DNA of 64,000 nucleotides from Georgenia yuyongxinii (GTDB lineage: Bacteria; Actinomycetota; Actinomycetes; Actinomycetales; Actinomycetaceae), in NCBI RefSeq assembly GCF_006352065.1, contig NZ_CP040915.1, forward strand, positions 3,472,001 to 3,536,000, in the 5' to 3' direction. The position numbers and the translations under genes were made by a program. The notes under the pieces were generated by a model. The model worked only from the letters and a program-made list of their open reading frames with translations. It did no database searches and was not told where the DNA came from. Positions 37,090 through 50,345 of the stretch are shown one piece after another; within the stretch, counting starts at the first letter, position 1, and the number at the start of each line of letters is the position of its first letter.

Positions 37090-37143
37090 CGGTCACGAGG
37101 GGCAGCTCACCCACGGCGGTCACGAGTGACAGCTCACCCACGG
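37090..37143. repeat. 27-bp tandem duplication across a stop codon
   Basis: Two head-to-tail 27-bp units (37090-37116 and 37117-37143) differ at two positions. The second contains the last codons and stop (TGA) of the prepilin-like gene; the first is an in-frame copy just past it with its own TGA. The product's end is therefore duplicated but not translated. Confidence 0.9.
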
Positions 37144-38574
37144 CGCCCATGCCTGGCCGTCCCAGTACTGGGCGTCGGTCACGTTCGTCTCGCTGGTGCT
37201 GTTGTCGTAGCGCGCGCCGAGGCCGATGCCGATCTTGCCGGAGGCGTTGAGCGCGAACGGCGTCTCGGAGGCGCCGTCGATCTCCTGGCGCCAGAGCTCT
37301 CCGCGGTCCTGGGCCGCCTGGACGAAGGTCTGGGCGGCGTTCAGCAACGATACCGGCCCGTTGGGGTTGGCTCCCCCGCGGTGTGCACCGGCGGGCACCG
37401 GGATGCCGGCGCCGCGGAGCAGGTCGGTGGCGATGGACAGGCTCTCGGGTGCGGTGAGGTCCACGGACGCGTTGATGACCTGACCGCCCGAGGCGTCGGG
37501 GCTGAAGCTCGGCCCGAAGACGGGGTCGATGCTCGCCTCGGCGGAGCCGAACATCGTGGCCTGGTACTCGACGTTGGTGAGGTAGTCGCCCGCGGGATCC
37601 ACCGTCACGGCGATGACCCCCTGGATCCTGCCGTCGGCGGAGCCGCTCGTGTTCACCAGGCCGCCGGGCAGGTCCACGTCCGCCTGGGCGCCGGCATCGG
37701 CGTCGACCTGGTAGTAGGTGGTGATCTCGCCGGTCTCGAGGTTGGTCTCGACACCGATGGCCATCGCGAGGTTCGCCTCGGCCGAGGCCGACTGGTCCAG
37801 CGCGGTGGCGCTGGCGCTGGCGCTGCCCGTGGCGCCGACCGCACCGAAGATCGACGTGGGTGTGGGCGGCTGGTAGCGGTCCACCCAGGGCATGGCGTTC
37901 CACAGGTTCCGCGCCGGGCCCACGATGGGGGTGGTGGCGTTGAAGAGCTCGTCCTGGAAGTACCCGACGAGCGCGTCCTTCTCGGCCGCGTCGACCTCCC
38001 AGACCATGCCGCCCTCGATGAGGGCGCCACCGGAGGCCCCGGCCGTCAGCTCGCCGCCGTACTGCTGGTCGCCAACCGTGACCTGCAGGCCGCCGCCGAC
38101 GCCGGCGCTGACCGCACCCTTGACGTCGCCCTGGTAGGTGACCCGGAAGGTGCCGTCCGCCAGCTCCTCGACGGCGACCGAGCCGCCCGTGTCCACGTCG
38201 ATGAACGCGACGGAGACCCCGAGGGAGCGGGAGGTCTCCTCGGTGGCGACGACGCATACCTCGCCGGGCTCGCGCGAGTCGGCCGCGGCGTTACCGGAGC
38301 CGCCGCACTCGAGGCCGAAGGAGGAGAAGGCACGGCACAGGGTGTTCTCGAACGCGCCAGACAGTGCGCCACCCGGGGCGGCGGAGGTCAGCAGTGCGCC
38401 GACGACGAGCACGACGACGAAGAGGGTGCCCACCAGCTCGGCGGACGCGGCGCCCCGCTCGCCGTCCGGGCCGCCCGCAGCGGGGCGCGGCGCGAGCGCG
38501 CGGGCACGGGCCACCGCGCGGGCGACGGCCCCCCGCGCGGGCGCCGGCGGGTGGGTCGGGTGCGCTGGGCTCAC
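37120..38574 (-). CDS. Large prepilin-like secreted protein of the Tad island
   Basis: A 484-residue protein with a basic, Pro/Ala-rich cytoplasmic leader of about 45 residues, then GERGAASAELVGTLF and a hydrophobic helix. G followed by AASAE places a Glu at +5, the pattern cut by prepilin peptidases in TadE/Flp-type proteins. The remaining 400 residues are a mostly acidic, Gly/Ala/Ser-rich extracellular region without a recognised domain; four Cys are visible in it (two near its start, one in EVCVVA and one at the C-terminus). The start is a GTG at 38574 with GAGGAG upstream. It is far longer than a usual TadE or Flp protein and could be a minor pilin or adhesin; this is inference. Confidence 0.75.
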   Translation of the reverse strand: MSPAHPTHPPAPARGAVARAVARARALAPRPAAGGPDGERGAASAELVGTLFVVVLVVGALLTSAAPGGALSGAFENTLCRAFSSFGLECGGSGNAAADSREPGEVCVVATEETSRSLGVSVAFIDVDTGGSVAVEELADGTFRVTYQGDVKGAVSAGVGGGLQVTVGDQQYGGELTAGASGGALIEGGMVWEVDAAEKDALVGYFQDELFNATTPIVGPARNLWNAMPWVDRYQPPTPTSIFGAVGATGSASASATALDQSASAEANLAMAIGVETNLETGEITTYYQVDADAGAQADVDLPGGLVNTSGSADGRIQGVIAVTVDPAGDYLTNVEYQATMFGSAEASIDPVFGPSFSPDASGGQVINASVDLTAPESLSIATDLLRGAGIPVPAGAHRGGANPNGPVSLLNAAQTFVQAAQDRGELWRQEIDGASETPFALNASGKIGIGLGARYDNSTSETNVTDAQYWDGQAWAPWVSCHS

Positions 38575-38627
38575 CTGGTCTCCTCGGGTCGGCTGTGCGG
38601 CACCGTGACGGTGCCCGCGTCCGGTTC

Positions 38628-38640
38628 GGACGTTACGGAC
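38628..38640 (-). promoter_or_regulatory. Shared 13-bp upstream motif (prepilin-like gene)
   Basis: GTCCGTAACGTCC on the minus strand, its near edge 54 nt before the GTG of the prepilin-like gene. The identical 13-mer lies 54 nt before the Flp pilin gene. A target of the adjacent NarL-type regulator is the natural guess. Confidence 0.55.
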
Positions 38641-38684
38641 GGTCCTGGTAGGGCGGCCAGGGGCGGGTGCCCCGCCGGCGCCCC

Positions 38685-39437
38685 TCAACCGACGAGCCGG
38701 GTCTCGATCCGCAGCGCCGAGACCGGCGGGTCGAACGGGTCTGGGGGCTCGGGCGTGCAGGTCGGTTCGGGCTCGGGGGTCTCCCCGTCCTGGCCGGTCG
38801 GCGTCTCGGTCGCGCCGTCCGCGGGGCACTGGGTCTCGGCCGTCTCGTCCTCGGTCGGCTCGGCCGCCGTGCGGCAGCCGCCGTCGAGGTCGACACCGAG
38901 GAGCCCGCCGGCCAGGCAGAGGCCGCCCCGGAGCTCGATGCGGGCGGTGGCCTCGGCGTAGATGTAGTGCCCGGTCGGGTCCACCGGCTCGTGCGACTTC
39001 ACCTCGACGCGGACCTCCCCGGCCCCCGGTCGCACACGCACATCGTGGCTCTGGAGCTCGGCGTCGTTGCGACCTGCGTACGTCCCGGCGGCCGCCCGCA
39101 TGCCCGACGGCCCGTACGCGTCCAACGGCCGACCGAGCAACGCCCAGAAGTCCGCAGGTGACGTCGCGTGCAGAAGCCTGGAGTGCACGTCCTCCAGGCC
39201 GTCGGCCCAGAGCTCCACGGACGCCAGCGCGGCGGCGTCGGCGGCGGTTGCCTGCGTGCGCCGCTCGGTGACGGCCTGGCCGAGCGGCACGAGGAACAGC
39301 AGCCCGATCAGCGTCAGCAGTGCGGCCCCGGCCACGGCGAAGGGCAGGATGCTGCCCCGCTCACCGGCCAGGCGGGTGGCGCACCACCGCGGAAGCCGGA
39401 TGACGCGCAACCGACCCAGCCGGGCGGCCAGCCTCAC
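38685..39437 (-). CDS. TadG-like pilus assembly protein
   Basis: A 250-residue protein of the TadE/TadG-like class. After a short basic start it has [20 protein letters not shown], a single membrane helix, and then [20 protein letters not shown], which is the typical 'aqueous face' sequence of TadG-like proteins. There is no Glu at +5, so it may not be processed. The outer part ends with an acidic Pro/Thr-rich stretch ([20 protein letters not shown]). The start is a GTG at 39437 overlapping the stop codon of the OmpA-domain gene (GTGA). Probably a surface component of the pilus machine. Confidence 0.78.
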
Positions 39438-40963
39438 CCGGCCACCTCGATGTCGGTGAGGCGGAACGGCGGCTGGAACGAGTACGCGACCGGGTTGTCG
39501 TCCTCGTTGTGGACGTCGAGGGTGACGGAGTCTGCCGGCACCCCGGGCCAGACGACCGTGAGGGTCACCTGCTCCCCCGCCGTCAGGCCCGTGCGGGCGG
39601 CGAGCTCCGTCAGGCCACGCGGGTCCTCCTCGCCCATCTGGTAGTCCAGCGGGTAGATGCGCTGCCCGCCGTCGACCAGGGTGAGGTTGGTGGGCGAGAA
39701 CTGCTGGGTCGGGGCGAAGCTGCCGCGGCTGTTGGCGGCCGTGCCCACGGAGAACCAGTTGCCGATGCTGGCGACCTCGCCGGCGACGTGCGAGACCTCG
39801 ACCTCCCCCACCAGGTAGTCGCCGAGCCGGCGGACCTGCGCCAGCCGGACCGCGACCTGGCTGCCGTCGCGGCCCTCGAGGGTGACACCCTCGGACCCGG
39901 GGCCGGTGGGCCCGGCGCTGGCGGGCAGCTCCACTCCTGAGGCGCCGCCGACGACCCCGGCCGTGGGCGTTTCCTCGGGACGGAACTGCAGCTCGACGCG
40001 CCGGTTCTGGGCGCGTGCCTCGGTGGAGGTGCCCTCGGCCCGGGGCTCGGACTCCCCGCGTCCTTCGGTAGCCACGGTGTACGCGCCGAGGTCGGCCAGC
40101 GTCCCCAGGCGGGTGGCGACGGCGGCGGCTCGCTGCTCGGAGAGCGCCTGGTTGGCGGCGTCGTCGTCGACGGCGTCGGTGTGCCCGATGATCGTCAGCT
40201 CACCCGCGCCGTAGTCCGCGAGCTGCTCGGCCACCCCCGTCAGAGTGGCGTCGGCGTCCGGTGACAGGTCCGCGCTCGTGGGCGCGAACAGCACGTCGGC
40301 GGCGACGTTGATCTCGACCTCGTCCTCCACCACGCGGGTGTCGCTGGAGTCGTCGAGGGCCTCGGTGTAGGTGTTTAGCGTGGCCTCGTGGGCGGTGGCG
40401 CCGGGCTCGGCAAGCTCACCCAGGGCCTGCACGGCGTCCTCGCCGGCGTCCGCCGCCAGGATCACCGGGACGTCCTCGACCAGCCCGACCATGGGAATCA
40501 TCACCGCGACGTCCTCGACGTCGACGGCACCGAACGCGACGTACCCGGTGACGGGCTGGTCCGGGCCGGCCACGAGCGGGTCGGTCGACGCGGCGATCTC
40601 CTCCTGGACGGTGCCTGCCACCGGGTCCACCAGCCGGAGGGCGTGCGGACCGGGCCGCTCCCCGGCGCCGAACGTCCAGTACTGCGCGAGGTCGACCGGC
40701 TCCGCGCCGTCTGCGGCGACCGCGGTGAGCGGCAGCACGCTGACGGCGCCGTCGTTCACGAGCGGACCGACCTCGACGGTGATCTCCGCCGCGCCGACGA
40801 CAGCCGTGGTCGTCACTCCCGCCGGAGCCGCCGGCGTGGCGGTGGCCGAGGGCGTCTCGGACGCCGTCGGCGATGCCTCCGCGCCGGGGTCCTGGGCCGT
40901 GCAGCCGGCGAGCAGGCCGACGGCGCCCAGGAACGGCAGGATGATGGTGGTTCGGCGTCTCAC
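39434..40963 (-). CDS. OmpA-domain lipoprotein of the Tad island
   Basis: A 509-residue predicted lipoprotein. From a GTG start at 40963 ([20 protein letters not shown] follows) it has a signal peptide with lipobox LAGC, a Thr/Ala/Pro-rich linker, a domain of about 170 residues, an OmpA-like peptidoglycan-binding domain ([56 protein letters not shown]) and a further C-terminal domain of about 160 residues. GGAAGG precedes the start. In a single-membrane organism it would tie the pilus base or pilin to the wall. Overlaps the TadG-like gene by 4 nt. Confidence 0.8.
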
Positions 40964-41011
40964 GGGCGACCTTCCGGATCGGAGGGGTGGGTAGGCGTGC
41001 ACGCGTGCGGA

Positions 41012-41057
41012 TGCGGGTGCGCGGTGCGGCCCCCCTGCTCCGCACCACGCACCCGCA
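41012..41057 (-). terminator. Long hairpin after the Flp pilin gene
   Basis: TGCGGGTGCG-GGTGCGG pairs with CCGCACC-CGCACCCGCA (one mismatch, 10-nt loop), 15 bp past the pilin stop codon. As in other pilin operons it may stop or protect transcripts so that pilin mRNA exceeds that of the following genes. No T-run. Confidence 0.6.
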
Positions 41058-41072
41058 CCCGGCGGACCTGCA

Positions 41073-41306
41073 TCAGCCCCCGATGTTGCCGACTGCCTCG
41101 GTGATCCGCCCGCCGATCGCGCTGGCGATGCTGGGGCCGAACGCCACCAGGGCGGCGATGATCGCGACGACGACGAAGATGATGCCGGCGTACTCGGCGG
41201 AGCTCTGGCCCTTCTCCTCGTTCCGCAGGCGGTCGAACGCACCGGCCACGAGGGCCACGGTCGCGATCTGCGCGGCGAGAACCTGGGTCTTGACACGGTT
41301 CATCAT
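41073..41306 (-). CDS. flp: Flp-family type IVb pilin
   Basis: The major pilin candidate: a 77-residue precursor with a basic leader, then [21 protein letters not shown] followed by QSSAEY gives the Glu+5/Tyr+6 pattern of Flp prepilins, and a single hydrophobic helix follows; mature length would be about 43 residues. Its start is ATG 41306 (GGAG 6 nt upstream), with a second ATG immediately after. It has its own upstream region with the 13-bp motif and a strong hairpin downstream, so it is probably regulated apart from the assembly genes. Confidence 0.9.
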
Positions 41307-41374: not shown

Positions 41375-42052
41375 CTAGCGCCCCACGGGCAGGGCCGTCT
41401 GCCCCGAGACGCGCCCCTGGTCGGGGCCCCGCCCCGCCTCCGCGTCGAGCCAGGCCACGACGGCCTCGGCACGGTTGTGCACGCCGAGCTTGGGGTAGGT
41501 GGCGTTGAGGTAGTTCTTCACCGTGCGGGGCGAGAGGAACTGCGCGCGGGCGATCTCGTCGTTGCTCAGGCCCTGCGCGGCGGCCTCGAGCACCTCGGCC
41601 TCACGCTCGGTGAGGGCGGCGCGCAGCGGGTTCACGCCGGTCGGTCCGCCCGAGGTGACCGCCATGACACCCGTGGCCTGCCTGCTGAGGACGAGGCCGC
41701 CGGAGAGGCAGGTGCGCAGGGCGCCGGCGAGCTCGCGCGGGCCGATCTCGCCGTGCACCAGGTACCCGCGGGCGCCGGCGCGCAACGCCTCGCGGACGAT
41801 CTCGGGGTCTTCTGAGTGGGTCAGCATGAGTGTCGGCGTGCTCGCCGCGATCACGTCGAGCACCTCGAGGCCGGACATCCGAGGCATCCGCACGTCCAGC
41901 AGGACGACGTCGGGCGGGTCGGCGGCCACGGCGTCGACGGCGGCGCGGCCGTCCGCGGCCTCGCACACCTCGCCCACCTCGTCCACCTGCTCGAGGGCGG
42001 CGCGCACGCCGAGCCGCACGATCGGGTTGTCGTCCACGACGAGGACCTTCAT
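41375..42052 (-). CDS. NarL/LuxR-type response regulator of the Tad island
   Basis: A 225-residue response regulator: receiver domain with acidic pocket D7/D8 and phospho-acceptor D53 (LLDVRMPRMSGLEVL), then a LuxR helix-turn-helix (LTEREAEVLEAAAQGLSNDE, SPRTVKNYLNATYPKLGV). The conserved Lys expected in GYLxK is replaced: the sequence reads GYLVHG. That could change phosphorylation signalling. It starts at ATG 42052, overlapping its kinase partner (ATGA), and lies immediately before the Flp gene; the pilin promoters are likely targets. Confidence 0.88.
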   Translation of the reverse strand: MKVLVVDDNPIVRLGVRAALEQVDEVGEVCEAADGRAAVDAVAADPPDVVLLDVRMPRMSGLEVLDVIAASTPTLMLTHSEDPEIVREALRAGARGYLVHGEIGPRELAGALRTCLSGGLVLSRQATGVMAVTSGGPTGVNPLRAALTEREAEVLEAAAQGLSNDEIARAQFLSPRTVKNYLNATYPKLGVHNRAEAVVAWLDAEAGRGPDQGRVSGQTALPVGR

Positions 42053-43353
42053 GACGGTTGGTTCCTTCCTGTCGGGATGGTGGGTGCGGGCGCCGCGGCG
42101 TCGACCGGAACCGGGGCTCCGGCGTCGTCCAGGGCAGCCGCCGGCTGGTGGGGCACCGCCGGCAGGTGCACGTGGATCTGGGTGCCGGTCCCGCCCGGTG
42201 GGACGCTCACGGTCACGCACCCGCCTACCTCCGCCGCCCGCTCGCGCACCCCGATGAGGCCGTAGTGGCCGCCGAGCGCGAGGGCGTCGTGGTCCAGCGG
42301 CGGCAGCCCCCGCCCGTCGTCGGCGACCACCAGGTCGAGGGCGTCCGGGGCGAGGCGAAGCGTGACGGTGGCACGGGAGGCCCCGGCGTGGCGGTGGATG
42401 TTCTCGAGGAGCTCGCCGAGGATGCGGATCGCGCGCCAGCTGGCCTCCGCGTCGGTCGGCCCGGTGTCCTCGCCCTGGACCTGGAGGTCGACGGGGATGC
42501 CGGTCCGCTCGTGCCAGAGCCGGGCCTCGAGCCGGACGGCGTCACCGAGCTGGTCCCGCGCGAGCGCGCGAAGCCCGCCCAGCACCTCCCGCGCCTCGCG
42601 GGTGGCCGTGTCGCACGCGTCGAAGATGACGTCCGCGGTCCCGGCGTGCGCGGAGCCGTCGGCGTGGAGACGCTCCGCGAGCACCTCGGTGAGCATGCGC
42701 ACACCGTGCAGGGTCTTGGCGAGGGAGTCGTGCATCTCCCGTGCCAGGGCCGCGCGTTCGCTCACCGCGGCCTTGCGGGTGCGCAGCTCGATCAGCTCGC
42801 GGGCTAGGCGGCCCTGACGGCGCAGCGCCTGCCCCAGGCGGCCCGAGAGGTGTGAGAGGAACGCCGCCGCGGGGACGAGCAGCAGCCACTCCGGCGCGGT
42901 GCGGCCCGGCGTCGCGATCGAGGCGGCGAGCAGACAGCAGGCCGAGACGACCACGGCCCACGCCAGTGCGCGCCACCGGGGAAGGAGGATGCCCAGCAGC
43001 GCCGCGGAGACCAGGACGTACGCGGCGGTCAGCGCGTTCCCGGCGCCGGCGGCCCCGGCCGCCCCGGCGACGACGAGCGTCATGAGCGCGTCACTGAGGA
43101 GGAACCGGCGGTCGTCGGAGAAGAGCCGGGGCCGGGCGGCCCAGTACCGCAGGGGCAGCCAGCTGAAGGGGATCGCGAGCAGCAGCACCACGAGGAGGGG
43201 GCTCGGCCGGGCGGTTGCCTCCAGGACGACGAGCGCGGCCAGGGTGGCCAGGCGCGCGTCGCAGACGAACTGCACCGCGCCGGTGATGCTGGCCGTCTCC
43301 AGCGATCCCGGTCCGCGCGCCGCCAGCCGGGCGGTCAGGTCAGCCGAAGACAT
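42049..43353 (-). CDS. NarL-system sensor histidine kinase of the Tad island
   Basis: A 434-residue kinase of the HisKA_3 family. About five hydrophobic segments occupy residues 30-170 with no sizeable outer domain, then the phospho-acceptor His (REMHDSLAKTLHG, H208) and a HATPase domain with ELLENIHRHAGAS, VADDGRGLPP and HYGLIGVRERAAEVGG. A Pro/Ala-rich tail follows. It overlaps tadC by 14 nt and the regulator by 4 nt. The lack of an outer domain suggests sensing within the membrane or of the pilus machinery; inference. Confidence 0.88.
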   Translation of the reverse strand: MSSADLTARLAARGPGSLETASITGAVQFVCDARLATLAALVVLEATARPSPLLVVLLLAIPFSWLPLRYWAARPRLFSDDRRFLLSDALMTLVVAGAAGAAGAGNALTAAYVLVSAALLGILLPRWRALAWAVVVSACCLLAASIATPGRTAPEWLLLVPAAAFLSHLSGRLGQALRRQGRLARELIELRTRKAAVSERAALAREMHDSLAKTLHGVRMLTEVLAERLHADGSAHAGTADVIFDACDTATREAREVLGGLRALARDQLGDAVRLEARLWHERTGIPVDLQVQGEDTGPTDAEASWRAIRILGELLENIHRHAGASRATVTLRLAPDALDLVVADDGRGLPPLDHDALALGGHYGLIGVRERAAEVGGCVTVSVPPGGTGTQIHVHLPAVPHQPAAALDDAGAPVPVDAAAPAPTIPTGRNQPS

Positions 43354-44224
43354 CGCCGAGCGACCCGAGGTTGGAGATGAGCATCCCGGCCATCATGAGG
43401 ATGAGGGCGCCGGGCACGATCGTCATGGTCACGACCAGCGAGACCCGCGGCGCGGCCTTCGCCGCGTCGCGACGCACCTGCTGGGCACGCTGGCGCCGGA
43501 CCTCCGAGGAGATGCTGCCCAGGGCCTCGGCGAGCGGCACCCCGAGCTCCTCGGCCTGCAGCAGGGCGGTGACGAAGGTGCTGACGTTCTCGGACTGGGC
43601 GCGGTCGCGCACCCCGATGAAGGCGTCCCGGCGAGGGATGCCGAGCTGCATCTCGCGCAGGGCGGTGGCCATCTCCTCCGCCAGCGGGCCGGCGTGGAAA
43701 GCGCTCACGCGCTCGACCGCCTGCCGGAACGAGGTACCGGCGCGCACGGTCACCCCGAGCACGTCGAGGAAGTCGGGCAGGTCGCGGTCGATCTGGCGGC
43801 GCCGGCGCGCGGCGACCATGCGCAGCCACACCTCCATCCAGGCCGCGAACACGAGGCCGAAGATGACGCCGAGCAGTGCCTGCCCCGCCAGGGCGAGAAG
43901 GACGACGACGACCATGCCGAGCACGGTGAAGCCCGCCTGCCGCTGCATGAACGCACTGACGGTGAGCCGCTCCGGCCGGCCGGCACGGCGCAGGCGGTCC
44001 TCGAGCCGGCGCAGCCGGGCGGGACCGTACATGGCCATCAGCGTGCGCTGGAACCGGGCGCCGAGCCGGTCCACGAACGCCGCGAACCCGCGCGGACCCT
44101 CGTCCTCCTCGCCCTGGCGGGTGATCACCTGGTCCTCGAGCCCGGTGGAGCCGAGCAGCCGCAGACCCTGGGCGCCGAAGAGCACGAGCAGCGCACCCGC
44201 GGCCCCCACGAGCAGGGCCGCCAT
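43340..44224 (-). CDS. tadC: Tad pilus inner-membrane platform protein TadC
   Basis: One of the two T2SF/GspF-domain platform proteins on which the pilus is built. The 294-residue protein has an N-terminal membrane helix, DLPDFLDVLGVTVRAGTSFR and LREMQLGIPRRDAFIGVRDR, then SEVRRQRAQQVRRDAAKAA and C-terminal helices. It starts at ATG 44224, overlapping the tadB stop codon (TGATG). Downstream it overlaps the kinase gene. Confidence 0.9.
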   Translation of the reverse strand: MAALLVGAAGALLVLFGAQGLRLLGSTGLEDQVITRQGEEDEGPRGFAAFVDRLGARFQRTLMAMYGPARLRRLEDRLRRAGRPERLTVSAFMQRQAGFTVLGMVVVVLLALAGQALLGVIFGLVFAAWMEVWLRMVAARRRRQIDRDLPDFLDVLGVTVRAGTSFRQAVERVSAFHAGPLAEEMATALREMQLGIPRRDAFIGVRDRAQSENVSTFVTALLQAEELGVPLAEALGSISSEVRRQRAQQVRRDAAKAAPRVSLVVTMTIVPGALILMMAGMLISNLGSLGDVFG

Positions 44225-45156
44225 CAGATCTCCACCTTGGTCATCATCTTCATCAGCACGAAGCCGACGACGAAGCAGCCGCCGGCCGCGGCCAGCGCCA
44301 GCTGCCCGAGGGGCGAGCTGGCCATGACGTCGAGGATCCCGGGCACGAACAGGTTCATGAGGAGCACCGAGGCCACGCCGATGGCCACGACGGCGTAACC
44401 GCCGAAGACGGAGCCGAGCATGACCGTGCCGACCTCGCGGCGCAGCTCCTTGCGGTCCTCGAGGGAGGAGGCGATGTCGCTGAGAGCGGTGACGAGCGCA
44501 CCGCCGGCGCGCGACTGGATGACGATGGTCTGCACCAGGACGCTGAGCTCGCGGGAGGGCAGGCGGGTCGCGAGGTCGCGCATGGCGTACTCGAGGTCGC
44601 GGCCGAGGCGCAGCTGGCCGACGACCTTGACCAGCTCGCTCGACGCCGGCTCGCTCATCTCCCGGGACGCCATCTCCAGGCCGCGGCGGATGGACAGGCC
44701 GGCCGCGGCGGAGTTGGCGAGCAGCCGGGCGAGCTCGGGCAGCTGGGCGATGAACCGGTCGGTGCGGCGCAGCACCCGGTGGTCGAGCCACCGGGAGACC
44801 GCCACCGGGATGGCGACGACGATCACGATGGTGCTGATCCGCCCGAGGGTGGGCAGCAGGACCGCGACGGCCAGGGCCATCGCGAGCAGCTCGGTGGTGA
44901 CCAGGCGGGCCGGCGACCAGCTCAGGCCCGCGCCACCGAGCCGGGCCTGGAGCCGCCGGCCGGGCCGGGTGCGCCGGATCCAGCCGTCCACCCGGACGAG
45001 CAGGCCGGCGACCGGCCGGCGGGTGAGAGTCCCGGACACCTCGACCACCTGCTGCGTGCGCAGGGCGTTGTCGATGAGCACGGACATGGCCCACAGGCCC
45101 ACGGCCAGGGTGAGGAGGGTCGCGAGCAGGACCGCCTCGGCGGAGCCCCACGTCAT
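44224..45156 (-). CDS. tadB: Tad pilus inner-membrane platform protein TadB
   Basis: The partner platform protein of TadC. Of 310 residues: N-terminal helix, a cytoplasmic part with LGGAGLSWSPARLVTTELLA, the T2SF domain (QLPELARLLANSAAAGLSIR, SSLEDRKELRREVGTV) and a C-terminal helix. The start overlaps the tadA stop codon by ATGA at 45156, supporting translational coupling. Confidence 0.9.
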   Translation of the reverse strand: MTWGSAEAVLLATLLTLAVGLWAMSVLIDNALRTQQVVEVSGTLTRRPVAGLLVRVDGWIRRTRPGRRLQARLGGAGLSWSPARLVTTELLAMALAVAVLLPTLGRISTIVIVVAIPVAVSRWLDHRVLRRTDRFIAQLPELARLLANSAAAGLSIRRGLEMASREMSEPASSELVKVVGQLRLGRDLEYAMRDLATRLPSRELSVLVQTIVIQSRAGGALVTALSDIASSLEDRKELRREVGTVMLGSVFGGYAVVAIGVASVLLMNLFVPGILDVMASSPLGQLALAAAGGCFVVGFVLMKMMTKVEI

Positions 45157-46472
45157 CGCGGCACCTCGCTCGGCCGGCCGGCGTCGGCGAACTGCTGCGG
45201 CACGGCCTCCCCCGCGCGCAGGAGGCGGTCGCGCAGCGTCCCCGGCAGCACGAGGTGGCGGAAGGTCGGCGGGGTGCCGGCCGGGGCACCGAACGGCGCG
45301 GGCACGAGCTCGGTGAGGGCCTCGGTGCGGAAGGCCTCCCGGCGGGAGGAGGTGACGGCGTGGACCTCGCTGACCCGGCGGCTGCCGTCGGCGCCGCGCT
45401 CGAGCTGGACGACGACGTCGATCGCGCCGTTGATCTGGTCGCGCAGCGTCTCCACGGGCAGGGCCAGGTCGGTCATCGACGCCAGGGTCTCCAGCCGGCC
45501 GAGCGCCTCGGCCGCACCGTTGGCGTGCACGGTGGTCAGCGAGCCCTCGTGACCGGTGTTCATGGCCTGGAGCATGTCCAGGGTCTCACCGCCGCGGACC
45601 TCGCCGACGACGATGCGGTCGGGCCGCATGCGCAGGCTGTTGCGGACGAGGTCGCGGATCGTCACGGCGCCCTGACCCTCGACGTTGGCCGGGCGCGACT
45701 CCAGCCGGACGACGTGCGGCTGCTGGAGGGACAGCTCGGCGGCGTCCTCGATGGTGACGATGCGCTCGCCGTCGGGGATCATGCCGGACAGCGCGTTGAG
45801 GAAGGTGGTCTTGCCCGAGCCGGTGCCGCCGGAGACCAGCACGTTGCACCGGGCACGCACCATCGCCGCGAGCAGCAGGGCCAGCGGCTCGTCGATGGTG
45901 CCGCGCGCGACGAGGTCCCCCATGCGGAAGGGCTGGGGGAACCGGCGGATGGTCAGGGTCGGGCCGTCCATGGCGAGCGGCGGGATGATGACGTTGACAC
46001 GCTCGCCGGTGGCGAGGCGGGCGTCGACCATGGGGCTGGACTCGTCCACGCGGCGGTTCACCGAGGACACGATGCGGTCGATGGTCTGGTACAGCTGGGC
46101 CTCGGAGGCGAAGGCGGTGGGCACGCGTTCGATCCGGCCGCGCCGCTCGACGAAGACGTCCCGGTAGCCGTTGACCATGATCTCGGTGACGGTCTCGTCG
46201 GCGAGCAGTCCCTCCAGGACACCGAGCCCTACTGTGTCGTCGACGATCCGCTGGATCAGCCGCCCGCGCTCGCGGGAGGACATGACCGGGCCCTCGAAGG
46301 AGAGCACCCGGGCCAGGACCCGCTCGAGGCGTGCCCGCCGCTTGGGCAGATCGAGGTCGGTGACCTCCTCGAGGTCCACCTCCTCGAGGAGCCGGGCCTT
46401 GAACTTGGTGACGAGGTCGTCTGAGTCGTCGACGGACCGGGAGTCCGTCGAGAGCCTGTCTCGCAGCGCCAT
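45153..46472 (-). CDS. tadA: Tad pilus assembly ATPase TadA/CpaF
   Basis: The VirB11/CpaF-type ATPase that powers pilus assembly. The 439-residue protein has Walker [16 protein letters not shown] (around residues 214-228), Asp box [15 protein letters not shown], Walker [15 protein letters not shown] and His box [16 protein letters not shown], all intact. It begins 3 bp after tadE. No retraction ATPase accompanies it, as usual for Tad. Confidence 0.93.
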
Positions 46473-46475
46473 CGG

Positions 46476-46847
46476 TCAGCCCGGGAAGTCCGCGGTGCGC
46501 CGCACGGTGACGGTGTCCACGCTGAAGGAGGGGATGCCGATGGGGATGCGCGCCTCCACGCTGACGCAGTGCCCCGCGCAGTCGGCGACGGCGGCCGCAC
46601 CGGTGTCGATGCGCTCGACGGTGATCCAGTCGGGGACCTGGTCGTGCACCGCCTGGTCGACGGACCGCTGGCCGGTCATCTGCGCGCGCGCGCCGTCGCG
46701 GGCGGCCTGCTGGACGGCGGAGACGGTGGTCACTGCCAGCATGCCCTGGACGACGACGAGGGTGATCAGCACGAGGATGGGCACGACCCCGACGAGCTCC
46801 ACGCTCAGGGCGCCGCGCTCCCGGCCCGCCTGGCGGAGCCGCCTCAT
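46476..46847 (-). CDS. tadE: TadE-like minor pilin
   Basis: A 123-residue pseudopilin: basic start, RERGALSVELVGVVPILVLI (G followed by ALSVE, Glu at +5), one membrane helix, then SAVQQAARDGARAQMTGQRS, the alpha-helical part typical of TadE. Two Cys (DCAGHC) near residues 93-97 may form a disulfide outside. Start ATG 46847 overlaps the fusion gene's stop (ATGA). A longer open frame upstream is a shadow. Confidence 0.87.
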   Translation of the reverse strand: MRRLRQAGRERGALSVELVGVVPILVLITLVVVQGMLAVTTVSAVQQAARDGARAQMTGQRSVDQAVHDQVPDWITVERIDTGAAAVADCAGHCVSVEARIPIGIPSFSVDTVTVRRTADFPG

Positions 46848-48403
46848 CGGCCCTCCCACAAGATCTCCGCGGTGGCGCGGGTGTCGGGCAGGGTCAGCGG
46901 CGAGGGGGTGCGCAGCGTGACGGTGACCTTGTCCGCCGTCGGGTCGGAGACGGTGCCGCCCGAGCGCCAGGCGGCGGGGACTCGGTCCATGACCTCGGTG
47001 TAGACATCCTCGGCCGGCATGCCGCGGCCGAAGGCACGCGCAGCCTCCTGGGCGGCGTTGCCGGCGTAGATGTGGGTGACGCCCCACACGATCAGCTGGA
47101 TGCACACCAGGAGCACGAGCGTGGCGAGCGCGAGGACGACCGGGGTCTCCACCGCGATCTGCCCGGACTCACCGGCCGGCTGACGCAGCCGCGGGACCCG
47201 CCGAGCGGGCTCGCGGCGTCGGCGCACGCGCGTCTCGCGCTGCGGCGCCTGTTCGGCGGTCGGTGGCGGGGGCGGCGCGAGGGATGCCTTCACGGCCTGC
47301 ATGGGCTTCGCCAGCTCGGGCAGCCGGGCGTCGAGGGCGGTCGCGGTGTTCAGCGCGGCTTCCAGGGACTGCCCGGCGCGCGGGATGCTGGCCGCGACCG
47401 GGATTCCGGAGAGCTTGGGCGCCATCGCGGGCTGGATCTCCGCGGACCGGTCGGTCATGTTGAGCAGGAGCCGCAACGGTGCCGAGCCGCGCACCTCCAG
47501 CCGGTCCAGGGCCTCCGAGAGACGACGGGCGCCCCGCAGCGCGGGCACGTCCGGGGTGGTCACCACGAGGATCTCGTTCGCGGACTCCAGCCCCATGGCC
47601 GTGACATCGTCGAGGCGCGACCCGCAGTCGATGACCACGCGCTCGTACTGGTAGCGCAGCGCCTGGACGATCTGACGCGTCGCCGCCTCGGACATCTCCT
47701 CCCCGTGCTCGCCCTCGTTGGGCGCCGGGATGAGGCTGATGCGGTGGGGCAGGGAGTAGGTGACCTCGCCGAGGGCCCGGCCGGTCAGCTCGTCCGCGAC
47801 CTCGACCAGGTCCACCACGCTGCGGCGCACCGAAACACCGGCGTAGGAGGCGAGGTCGCCGCCGCGCACGTCGAGGTCCACCAGGCAGGTGGTGTGCTCG
47901 GCGGCCAGCTCCTTCGCGAGCAGCAGCGCGAGCAGGGAGGTGCCCACCCCGCCCTTGGCCCCGACGAGGGCGATGACCTCACCCGCGGCACCCTGGTTGC
48001 CGCTGGAGTCGTCGATCTGGCGCCGCACCGACCGCGACCAGGTGGCCGCGGACTCGATGCGCGTGACGAACTGCTCCAGCGACGGCGGCATGGCCAGGAT
48101 CGAGCGCGCGCCGACATCCATCGCGGTGGCCAGCGCCTCGGGCGTCGCTTGCTGGACGAGGACCAGGGTGGCGATCAGCGGGTGGTCCAGACCGACCTCA
48201 CGGGCGGTCTCGAACCCCAGACCGCCATCGAGGCGCTCGTCCACGAGCACCACGTCCGGCGAGGACAGGGCGAGCTCGTGGCGCAGCTGCGCGACCGAGC
48301 CGACGACGGCCTGCGCCAACACGCTCTCCGCCTCGGCCAGGGTGGCCCGGACCTGCTCGACCGTTCGGGCGTCGTCCGAGACGACGAGCACGTTGAACGT
48401 CAT
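46844..48403 (-). CDS. TadZ/CpaE-like ATPase fused to a TadE-like pilin domain
   Basis: A 519-residue two-part protein. Residues 1-125 resemble a receiver domain (VLVVSDD, DVVLVDE); 140-345 form a MinD/CpaE-type ATPase with VGAKGGVGTSLLALLLAKEL (Walker A with K150 but Thr at the second Lys place), LVDLDVRGGDLA and VVIDCGSRLDD. After a Pro/Arg-rich linker (380-410) comes AGESGQIAVETPVVLALATL, a prepilin-like motif with Glu+5 and one membrane helix, then HIYAGNAAQEAARAF and about 65 outer residues, a complete TadE domain. The frame is open throughout. TadZ places the pilus machine in the cell; TadE is a pseudopilin. Cleavage at G414 would separate the two. Confidence 0.85.
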   Translation of the reverse strand: MTFNVLVVSDDARTVEQVRATLAEAESVLAQAVVGSVAQLRHELALSSPDVVLVDERLDGGLGFETAREVGLDHPLIATLVLVQQATPEALATAMDVGARSILAMPPSLEQFVTRIESAATWSRSVRRQIDDSSGNQGAAGEVIALVGAKGGVGTSLLALLLAKELAAEHTTCLVDLDVRGGDLASYAGVSVRRSVVDLVEVADELTGRALGEVTYSLPHRISLIPAPNEGEHGEEMSEAATRQIVQALRYQYERVVIDCGSRLDDVTAMGLESANEILVVTTPDVPALRGARRLSEALDRLEVRGSAPLRLLLNMTDRSAEIQPAMAPKLSGIPVAASIPRAGQSLEAALNTATALDARLPELAKPMQAVKASLAPPPPPTAEQAPQRETRVRRRREPARRVPRLRQPAGESGQIAVETPVVLALATLVLLVCIQLIVWGVTHIYAGNAAQEAARAFGRGMPAEDVYTEVMDRVPAAWRSGGTVSDPTADKVTVTLRTPSPLTLPDTRATAEILWEGR

Positions 48404-49113
48404 GGCGCCACCACCTGTGGGATCTGTTCGTACACGCGTTGCTCGGCCGGTACGTCGGTCTCGTCCCCGAGCCCGCGCAGCGCGAGCCGGAGCTTGACGG
48501 CGAAGCTTTCCGCGTAGGCCACGCGGAGGGCGTCGTTCGTGCTGAGTGCGAAAGTCACGGGCACGCCCTGCGAGTCGGTGAAACCGCCCTGGGGGTTCTC
48601 CTCCTCCACGGCCTGGGGCAGGCCGACCTCGATCACGAGGGCGTTGCTCACCCAGACCTCGGCACGCTGGGCGTCGGTGACCGGGTCGACGGTGGTCGCC
48701 AGGAGGTCCACCCGGTCGCCCGGGCCGACCTTGCCGGCGACGCCGGTCTCGGCGTCGACCATGATGGCGACCTCGCGGTAGCCGGGCTGCAGACCGGGCG
48801 CCTCGCGGAGCATGCCGTCCTGGACGAGCGCACCGGCCCGATAAGTGCCGGCCGAGACCAGGCCGGCCACCTGCTCGGGCTCGGTGAGCGCACCCTCTGG
48901 GACCCAGCGAGCAGGCCGCTCGACCACCTCGATCATGTCCTGCGTCACCGGTTCAAGCTCTTCGACGTCCCGGCTCAGGGTCACCACCGGGACGAGGTTG
49001 CCCACCTGGGAGGCCACCGACGACACGTACGCGGAGACCGCGAAGAAGACGATGACGGCGCCGATTCCGGTGGCCAGCAGGAGGAGCACGCCGCGGCGCT
49101 GCCGCGGGTTCAT
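48400..49113 (-). CDS. cpaB: CpaB/RcpC-like SAF-domain pilus protein
   Basis: A 237-residue protein with an N-terminal membrane helix (GVLLLLATGIGAVIVFFAVS), then an SAF domain (VVTLSRDVEELEPVTQDM, GTYRAGALVQDGML) and the CpaB/RcpC part with VGPGDRVDLLATT. In other Tad systems this protein works at the periplasmic side; here it would face the wall. It overlaps its neighbours on both sides by 4 nt (ATGA). Confidence 0.85.
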   Translation of the reverse strand: MNPRQRRGVLLLLATGIGAVIVFFAVSAYVSSVASQVGNLVPVVTLSRDVEELEPVTQDMIEVVERPARWVPEGALTEPEQVAGLVSAGTYRAGALVQDGMLREAPGLQPGYREVAIMVDAETGVAGKVGPGDRVDLLATTVDPVTDAQRAEVWVSNALVIEVGLPQAVEEENPQGGFTDSQGVPVTFALSTNDALRVAYAESFAVKLRLALRGLGDETDVPAEQRVYEQIPQVVAP

Positions 49114-49916
49114 CGTGCGCCCCCGGAATTCACGGTCACGGCGGTCTCCGAACGGTCGGCGGCCCCGGCAGTGACGTCGTCGCCGCCGGTGTTGCCGCAG
49201 AAGATGCAGCGCGGTCCGGTCGCGGGCCGGTCACACATCGGGCACGGCCGGGCCGGGAGCGCGGCGAGGATCTCGCGCGCGACGACGTCAGGCGTCCGGT
49301 CGAGCCAGCTGGCCTCCGCCCACTCGCGGGCGCGCCAGGCGGGGGCCTGGGGACGCGCCGGAAGGGTGAGGTCGGGGTCGCGGGCCGGCTCGAGCGTGAC
49401 CGTGAGGCGGCGGCGCTCCGGCGAGGCATCCCAGACGACGACGTCGGCAGGGGCGACCGGCCAGACCACAGACCGGGTCTCGCGGACCTCACCGGCGGTG
49501 ATGTCCACGTCGAACGCGGTCGACGGGAGCCAGCCGCGCACGTGCTGGCGCAGCGTCGGAGCCGGGTTGCCCAGGCGGCTGACCGAGGAGAGGGCGAGCC
49601 GCGTGCGGACGCGGCCGGCGGCGCGGGCCGCGACGGCCGGAGCGCTGGCGTAGCGCGCGAGGGGAAGCGCGAGAAGGCAAGACGCCACGAGGATGCGAGC
49701 AGTGCGGTGACCGCTCAGCACGACCAGCCCCACATCGCCCCGGGCCATCGCCGTGCGCGCCATGCGGGAGGTGCGCTCCGTCTCGCCGGGGCCGGAAATC
49801 ACCAGCACGTCCCCGCCGCGCGAGCGGTCGAGAACATCGGCCGCCTCCTCTGCGTCGGAGACTGCGACGACGCCGTCACCGCCCGGCAGCTCGCCGAATC
49901 CGACGAGTACCCTCAT
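49110..49916 (-). CDS. Zinc-ribbon protein of unknown function, first gene of the Tad operon
   Basis: A 268-residue protein I do not recognise. From ATG 49916 (MRVLVGFGELPGGDGVVAVS) it starts with an alpha/beta-like stretch containing VLVISGPGETERTSRMA, a possible nucleotide- or phosphate-binding fold, then a central hydrophobic patch (RILVASCLLALPLARY) and, near the end, CPMCDRPATGPRCIFCG, a zinc-ribbon with two CxxC pairs. It overlaps cpaB by 4 nt and is the most upstream gene of the operon; a 63-bp divergent gap separates it from the DUF192 gene and must hold the operon promoter. GGGGGAG lies close before the ATG. Confidence 0.75.
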   Translation of the reverse strand: MRVLVGFGELPGGDGVVAVSDAEEAADVLDRSRGGDVLVISGPGETERTSRMARTAMARGDVGLVVLSGHRTARILVASCLLALPLARYASAPAVAARAAGRVRTRLALSSVSRLGNPAPTLRQHVRGWLPSTAFDVDITAGEVRETRSVVWPVAPADVVVWDASPERRRLTVTLEPARDPDLTLPARPQAPAWRAREWAEASWLDRTPDVVAREILAALPARPCPMCDRPATGPRCIFCGNTGGDDVTAGAADRSETAVTVNSGGAR

Positions 49917-49979
49917 AAACTCCCCCTGTCCCCCGTTGCCACGAACCTGCGGGCGCGCCAAAAGATCGGAAGAAACCTC

Positions 49980-50345
49980 ATGACAGCCGCCGCGCCGGTG
50001 TGGGCAAACCGGAACGAAGTCTACCGATTGGCTGTTAACGGGCAAATGGTGACCAATTTGTGGGTGGCCCGCAACCGGGCGGAACGGCGCCAGGGACTGC
50101 TCGGGACCGACCACCTGGACGGCGCACTGTTGATCGAGCGGTGCTCCTCGGTGCACACCGTCGGCATGCGCTACGCCATCGACGTGGCGTTCGTCGGTGC
50201 CGCGGGGCGGGTCCGCGATGTCGTCACCATGGTGCCCGGCCGGGTGGGCCTGCCGCGTCCGCTGGCGCGCGCGGTCGTCGAGGCACCGGCCGGAGAGCTG
50301 CGGCGCCTGGGGGTGCGGCCGGGGACGGTTCTCGCTGCCCTATAA
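49980..50345 (+). CDS. DUF192 family protein
   Basis: A 121-residue protein of the DUF192 family: LAVNGQMVTNLWVARNRAER, QGLLGTDHLDGALLIERCSS, VHTVGMRYAIDVAFVGAAG and VPGRVGLPRPLARAVVEAPA match the family core. The family's function is not well defined. The ATG at 49980 (MTAAAPVWANRNE) is chosen for GGAAG 8 nt upstream; a much longer open frame is the shadow of the opposite gene. Divergent from the Tad operon with a shared 63-bp gap. The first 80 bases are AT-richer than their surroundings. Confidence 0.82.
   Translation: MTAAAPVWANRNEVYRLAVNGQMVTNLWVARNRAERRQGLLGTDHLDGALLIERCSSVHTVGMRYAIDVAFVGAAGRVRDVVTMVPGRVGLPRPLARAVVEAPAGELRRLGVRPGTVLAAL

Follow-up and report, generated by a model that had tools for sequence, protein, structure and literature searches.

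The 64,000-nucleotide stretch of the Georgenia yuyongxinii genome considered here (the window; positions 3,472,001 to 3,536,000 of contig NZ_CP040915.1) carries an operon for a Tad (type IVc) pilus in which a TadZ/CpaE-type ATPase and a TadE pseudopilin are encoded by one gene. This gene is a single frame of 519 codons plus stop, spanning positions 46844-48403 on the minus strand, which bears out the continuous ATPase-TadE fusion proposed in a preliminary description of this DNA and supplies the strand that was left out there. The plus-strand frame is likewise open across 46844-48403 and is taken for an antisense artefact of GC-rich DNA; family profile searches were performed with the minus-strand protein. 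The parts of the fusion are laid out as follows, with a slash marking the putative cut:

46844..48403, minus strand: CpaE/TadZ-TadE fusion of 519 amino acids (frame, Pfam, NCBIfam, model)
47276..48403, minus strand: pseudo-receiver and MinD/TadZ-type ATPase, residues 1-376 (Pfam, model, PDB matches)
47165..47275, minus strand: Pro/Arg-rich linker, residues 377-413 (low model confidence)
47147..47164, minus strand: putative prepilin peptidase site G414/QIAVE419 (alignment of fused proteins)
46847..47164, minus strand: TadE pseudopilin domain, residues 414-519 (Pfam TadE, models)

In the N-terminal part, Pfam identifies Response_reg at residues 5-116 (35 bits) and AAA_31 at residues 142-303 (46.9 bits), both above cut-off, and the ATPase has an atypical Walker A motif, KGGVGTS, at residues 150-156. 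The two-domain E. rectale structure 3fkq, which we take to be TadZ, aligns over residues 1-376, and both the model and the PDB matches extend the ATPase fold to about 375-380, hence the domain limits first given, 1-345 and 410-519, were slightly off. Pfam TadE matches residues 414-456 with 19.6 bits in hmmscan, where the cut-off is 22.9, and exceeds that cut-off with 23.8 bits in a six-frame genome scan; among fused members, 20 of 32 match it at E<=0.01. The AlphaFold2 model has a mean predicted local distance difference test score of 89.4, falling below 50 for residues 388-416, and shows the TadE part as a single helix (residues 414-459) plus a small head. The junction reads as initially stated, with G414/QIAVE providing Gly at -1 and Glu at +5, followed by about 20 hydrophobic residues of a membrane helix.

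The arrangement is not peculiar to this organism. The preliminary description had suggested looking for further proteins of CpaE/TadZ plus TadE architecture, and among 91 loci examined (89 distinct, as L041/L057 and L042/L062 are identical in the ATPase part and seemingly come from the same genomes) 42 are fused and 49 unfused. The set comprises the window, 10 loci from similarity searches of genome samples (L002-L006, L041-L044, L133) and the best 80 of 528 relatives from an alignment-based scan of named contigs, which found relatives where a single-protein scan of the named genome contigs gave none; it gives no frequency, because its members were picked by similarity and ATPase pattern. Other sample matches, judged by lower scores and partial span, were taken as distant CpaE/MinD paralogs or as receiver-only or ATPase-only proteins and left out. 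Also left out was L045 (G064), a broken remnant of the same operon with an interrupted cpaB and an ATPase frame of 107 codons. A separate tadE lies downstream of the ATPase gene in 48 of the 49 unfused loci, and partner counts are therefore given over 48, since L104 has no TadE before the contig end. ATPase and TadE are parts of one operon, and in about half of the loci they are encoded by separate, neighboring genes. In the family sample (121 genomes), 13 genomes match at E<=1e-12 and seven have the fused gene (G000, G004, G008, G021, G042, G118, G129), that of G008 being 76% identical to the window's, while in G094 ATPase and TadE are separate genes. In the phylum sample (100 genomes), five match at E<=1e-30, four of them fused (G000, G242, G194, G236) and one unfused (G185). 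Besides the window's own genome, similarity searches located the fusion in eight genomes of the family or order (L002-L006, L041, L042, L044) and in L133, and fused cases span from Actinomyces and Streptomyces (for instance S. netropsis, locus L117) to Solirubrobacter. The fusion is a genuine and widespread form of the Tad machinery and, as far as we have seen, one that has not been described before. In nine fused proteins that were retrieved without using a P-loop pattern, Thr or Val replaces the Lys of KGGVGKT, and fused L135 has Cys in its place.

The junction was compared in a motif-free MAFFT alignment of the 44 open reading frames with at least 340 residues past the P-loop, of which L075 and L083 are unfused. 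Gly stands at -1 in 42/42 fused proteins, Glu at +5 in 41/42 (Asp in L059) and an acidic residue at -3 in 39/42, and three more fused loci from the phylum sample (L134, L135, L137) keep the Gly and the Glu. All 48 split partners have the Gly, the Glu and the acidic residue at -3, at sites chosen by a Gly-requiring motif. When 40 distinct fused sequences are compared over the last 30 leader residues, only one other position, the acidic -3, is nearly conserved, the next best being Arg at -9 (24/40 without gaps, 39/42 with gaps allowed), and the distance from P-loop+205 to the Gly ranges from 47 to 175 amino acids. L042 and L062 have a far longer linker (175 residues from P-loop+205), still ending in EEG/ATAVE. 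Net charge before the site is higher than after the helix in 39 of the 42 fused proteins (mean +4.1 vs. +0.1), a positive-inside excess that is expected if the ATPase stays inside. We know of no other use for Gly at -1, nor of any need for it in an uncut chain. In prepilins this Gly precedes the cut, which is made on the cytoplasmic side (PMC4471445). The retention of the Gly in all fused proteins is the main argument for cutting.

The fusion is probably a prepilin in which a folded ATPase serves as the "leader" and which is cut after the Gly. In this monoderm pilus system, the TadZ/CpaE-type ATPase and the TadE pseudopilin are made as a single chain, which would be inserted so that the ATPase and the basic linker stay inside while the TadE head faces outward, an orientation proposed because of the charge layout and the known prepilin topology. 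A prepilin peptidase would most likely cut after G414 on the inner face, which would yield a mature pseudopilin with Gln415 as its first residue and a soluble ATPase that stands where a leader peptide of 6-26 residues is usually found, so that the end state would be the same as in relatives with separate, tightly adjacent genes. The cleavage proposed in the preliminary description is consistent with the intact junction and with a positive-inside charge, both conserved across several changes between fusion and fission; cutting, like insertion, release and any placing role before release, is inferred. The ATPase may thereby be directed to the pilus base, and the equal amounts of the two parts may matter, as was also suggested there. 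More tentatively, and with distinctly less confidence than in the cut itself, the peptidase may act as a polyprotein processor: the full-size ATPase leader would be held at the membrane at the assembly site and freed only when the peptidase matures the pseudopilin, coupling base placement to pilus initiation.

A prepilin peptidase (PF01478, above cut-off) is present in all 35 of the genomes behind the loci that were covered by the peptidase search (30 fused, 5 split). The window genome has two prepilin peptidases, of CpaA and PilD type, both away from the fusion's cluster. In G021 and G118 a PF01478 peptidase lies ~2 kb from the fusion; in G118, whose contig coordinates equal those of L057, the two matches are ~1.8 kb apart, with the peptidase upstream. 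Such a peptidase is, however, also present in 12 of 14 control genomes.

A reading that agrees with cutting and differs on benefit alone is that the fusions are neutral: stop codons between adjacent genes would have been lost and the losses tolerated since the peptidase re-splits the product, with no tethering and no advantage. We give this somewhat less than an even chance. It is favored by the layout of the split loci, where 25/48 have TadE in the frame of the ATPase; relative to the ATPase stop, the nearest TadE ATG or GTG start is at +3 nt (17 loci), -4 (8), -1 (5) or elsewhere (9), the remaining 9 having none within the inspected range, so that in 30/48 the start overlaps the ATPase stop or sits 3 nt after it. 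Where TadE is in frame and 3 nt away, one stop codon parts the fused from the split form. L043, a split ortholog, has a TadE leader of 15 amino acids, ending in NG/QATVE, and its TadE ATG overlaps the stop of the ATPase gene; L075 and L083, also split, carry a long C-terminal extension of the ATPase frame, with TadE read in a different frame from a start at -4. The changes of state favor neutrality too. A quick-method tree of 91 rows, built on the ATPase portion, requires seven changes between fused and unfused, five of them forced by starred (well-supported) branches, with a tool warning of long branches, chiefly L043; when four long rows were dropped, six changes were left, and a single fused clade was rejected (p-AU 0.00014; 39 fused vs. 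48 unfused rows). The tree thus indicates that fused and split states replaced each other several times; being unrooted, it does not allow the direction (fusion or fission) to be read. Against neutrality, fused forms make up entire groups of rows: all seven in the group formed by Cellulomonas, Promicromonosporaceae and G021, and all but one of the 13 in the neighborhood of Actinomyces and the window.

Alternatively, the chain may stay uncut and provide a lasting ATPase-TadE contact, which we consider unlikely. Repeated fusion is consistent with such a contact, and so are observations on each partner: TadE, TadE2 and TadF were not found in pili sheared from Micrococcus luteus, a species without TadZ, and were proposed to act at the base (PMC4322843), and in Caulobacter CpaE was fitted at the inner membrane so as to surround the motor (PMC13170226). 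In an uncut chain, however, the Gly at -1 should drift, yet the fused proteins keep it without exception, like the split ones, and the acidic -3 is mostly retained too.

Very improbable is that TadE is also made from an internal start and that the fusion is a by-product. In favor of this, 29 of the 42 fused genes offer some ATG or GTG no more than 45 codons before the site, also in the window, whose fusion has a GTG 21 codons upstream of the site, without a Shine-Dalgarno-like word. If TadE were made in this way, the fused genes should keep such a start, but 12/42 lack ATG, GTG and TTG altogether in the 45 codons that precede the site, and an ATG or GTG with a Shine-Dalgarno-like word occurs at this distance or less in 6/42 fused vs. 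31/48 split loci (Fisher p 1.4e-6), by a simple word match that leaderless or unusual starts would escape. A frameshift, sequencing error or mis-assembly that joins two genes, which the preliminary description had named as a refutation, has a negligible chance and is excluded by the single-contig genome and by the independent genomes and conserved relatives, such as G008, that share the fusion.

The fusion gene is embedded in a same-strand series that runs from a gene of unknown function through cpaB, the fusion, tadE2, tadA and two platform genes, and continues downstream with genes for a histidine kinase, a response regulator, a Flp-like pilin, an OmpA-domain protein and a TadE/G-like protein. 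Its annotated members are:

48400..49113, minus strand: CpaB/RcpC (TIGR03177, 99.8 bits, cut-off 71; PF16976)
46476..46847, minus strand: second TadE pseudopilin, G/ALSVE (Pfam TadE, 33.8 bits, scanned 46476-46856)
45153..46472, minus strand: TadA/CpaF motor ATPase (PF00437, 225.5 bits)
44224..45156, minus strand: TadB-type platform protein (T2SSF, 59.4 bits; B/C by position)
43340..44227, minus strand: TadC-type platform protein (T2SSF, 74.7 bits; B/C by position)
42049..43353, minus strand: histidine kinase (profile match; by eye, a similar open reading frame at the same place in L057)
41375..42220, minus strand: LuxR-type response regulator (profile match; by eye, a similar open reading frame at the same place in L057), its true start probably inside this frame
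41076..41306, minus strand: candidate Flp-like major pilin of 77 amino acids, G/QSSAEY (sequence)
38685..39437, minus strand: TadE/G-like protein (PF13400, 25 bits, cut-off 22.3)

Codons overlap at both ends of the fusion gene, its ATG with the stop of cpaB and its stop with the ATG of tadE2 (ATGA). By eye, Actinomyces oris L057 shows the same gene arrangement over the stretch that begins with the unknown gene and ends with the response regulator. The Flp-like candidate has no Pfam match above cut-off; G008 also has a 77-residue open reading frame of this type. The gene upstream of cpaB (49110-50156, minus strand) encodes a protein with a C-terminal CxxC...CxxC pair and no Pfam or NCBIfam match above cut-off; by eye, L057 (4491-5276) and L003 have similar genes in the corresponding position. 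Within the Tad cluster, the OmpA-domain protein (39434-41296, minus strand; PF00691, 56.6 bits) has a lipobox-like start, the true start probably lying near 41030, and could be a peptidoglycan anchor of the pilus; a similar protein follows the remnant operon of L045 (by eye). At 37120-38829 (minus strand), a long protein with a class III-like signal, G/AASAE, a hydrophobic stretch and a large outer part, without Pfam or NCBIfam match, is a possible adhesin or tip pseudopilin. A divergent gene for a DUF192 protein (49542-50345, plus strand) adjoins the operon. The window genome has two further Tad loci (L138, L139), in which the ATPases are unfused and have the P-loop KGGVGKT.

How the Tad pilus base coheres, and whether TadZ replaces the PilM-PilN-PilO bridge of other type IV pili, is raised as a question in a review (PMC6916266). 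That TadZ is repeatedly fused to one and the same kind of pseudopilin hints at the two parts that meet, and natural fused and split versions are available for testing this contact. If the chain is cut, prepilin "leaders", so far tens of residues long, would come to include a complete, functional enzyme; the architecture is surprising, yet the likely outcome is that of the split genes.

Like TadZ/CpaE, the fusion has a pseudo-receiver, a MinD-like ATPase and an atypical Walker A motif, the latter being described for TadZ in PMC6668835 and PMC13170226, and it lies beside cpaB and tadA in a Tad operon with cpaB, tadA, tadB and tadC (Pfam, NCBIfam); it differs in the added C-terminal transmembrane pseudopilin. 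With 73.1 bits it falls below the curated cut-off (154.45) for Ssd, the actinobacterial CpaE homolog (TIGR03815), and with 29.7 bits below that (40) for the Rv3655c TadE subfamily (NF041390). TadE/TadF pseudopilins, which are reportedly matured by TadV, share with it the G/xxxxE motif, the hydrophobic helix, the small outer domain and the Pfam TadE family, whereas its "leader" of ~414 residues is itself a folded ATPase. Class III signal peptide leaders have 6-26 residues (PMC4471445), a range that the would-be leader of 414 residues far exceeds. Unfused cpaE-tadE pairs (Streptomyces and others) have the same operon place and cleavage motif but are two polypeptides, with a TadE leader from ~8 amino acids upward by start choice. 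The full-text literature searched describes no TadZ/CpaE-TadE fusion, in agreement with the preliminary description, most subscription papers, preprints and protein-architecture databases lying outside this search; the accessible text of the type IV filament family study describes tadB/tadC fission and names no TadZ-TadE fusion (PMC6668835). Among known fusions, the one closest in spirit to TadZ-TadE is PilM-PilN, described for the type IVa pili of Clostridioides difficile (PMC6916266). There, too, cytoplasmic and membrane parts of a pilus base are fused in a monoderm. The two Pil proteins have no relationship to TadZ and TadE, and we know of no prepilin site between PilM and PilN.
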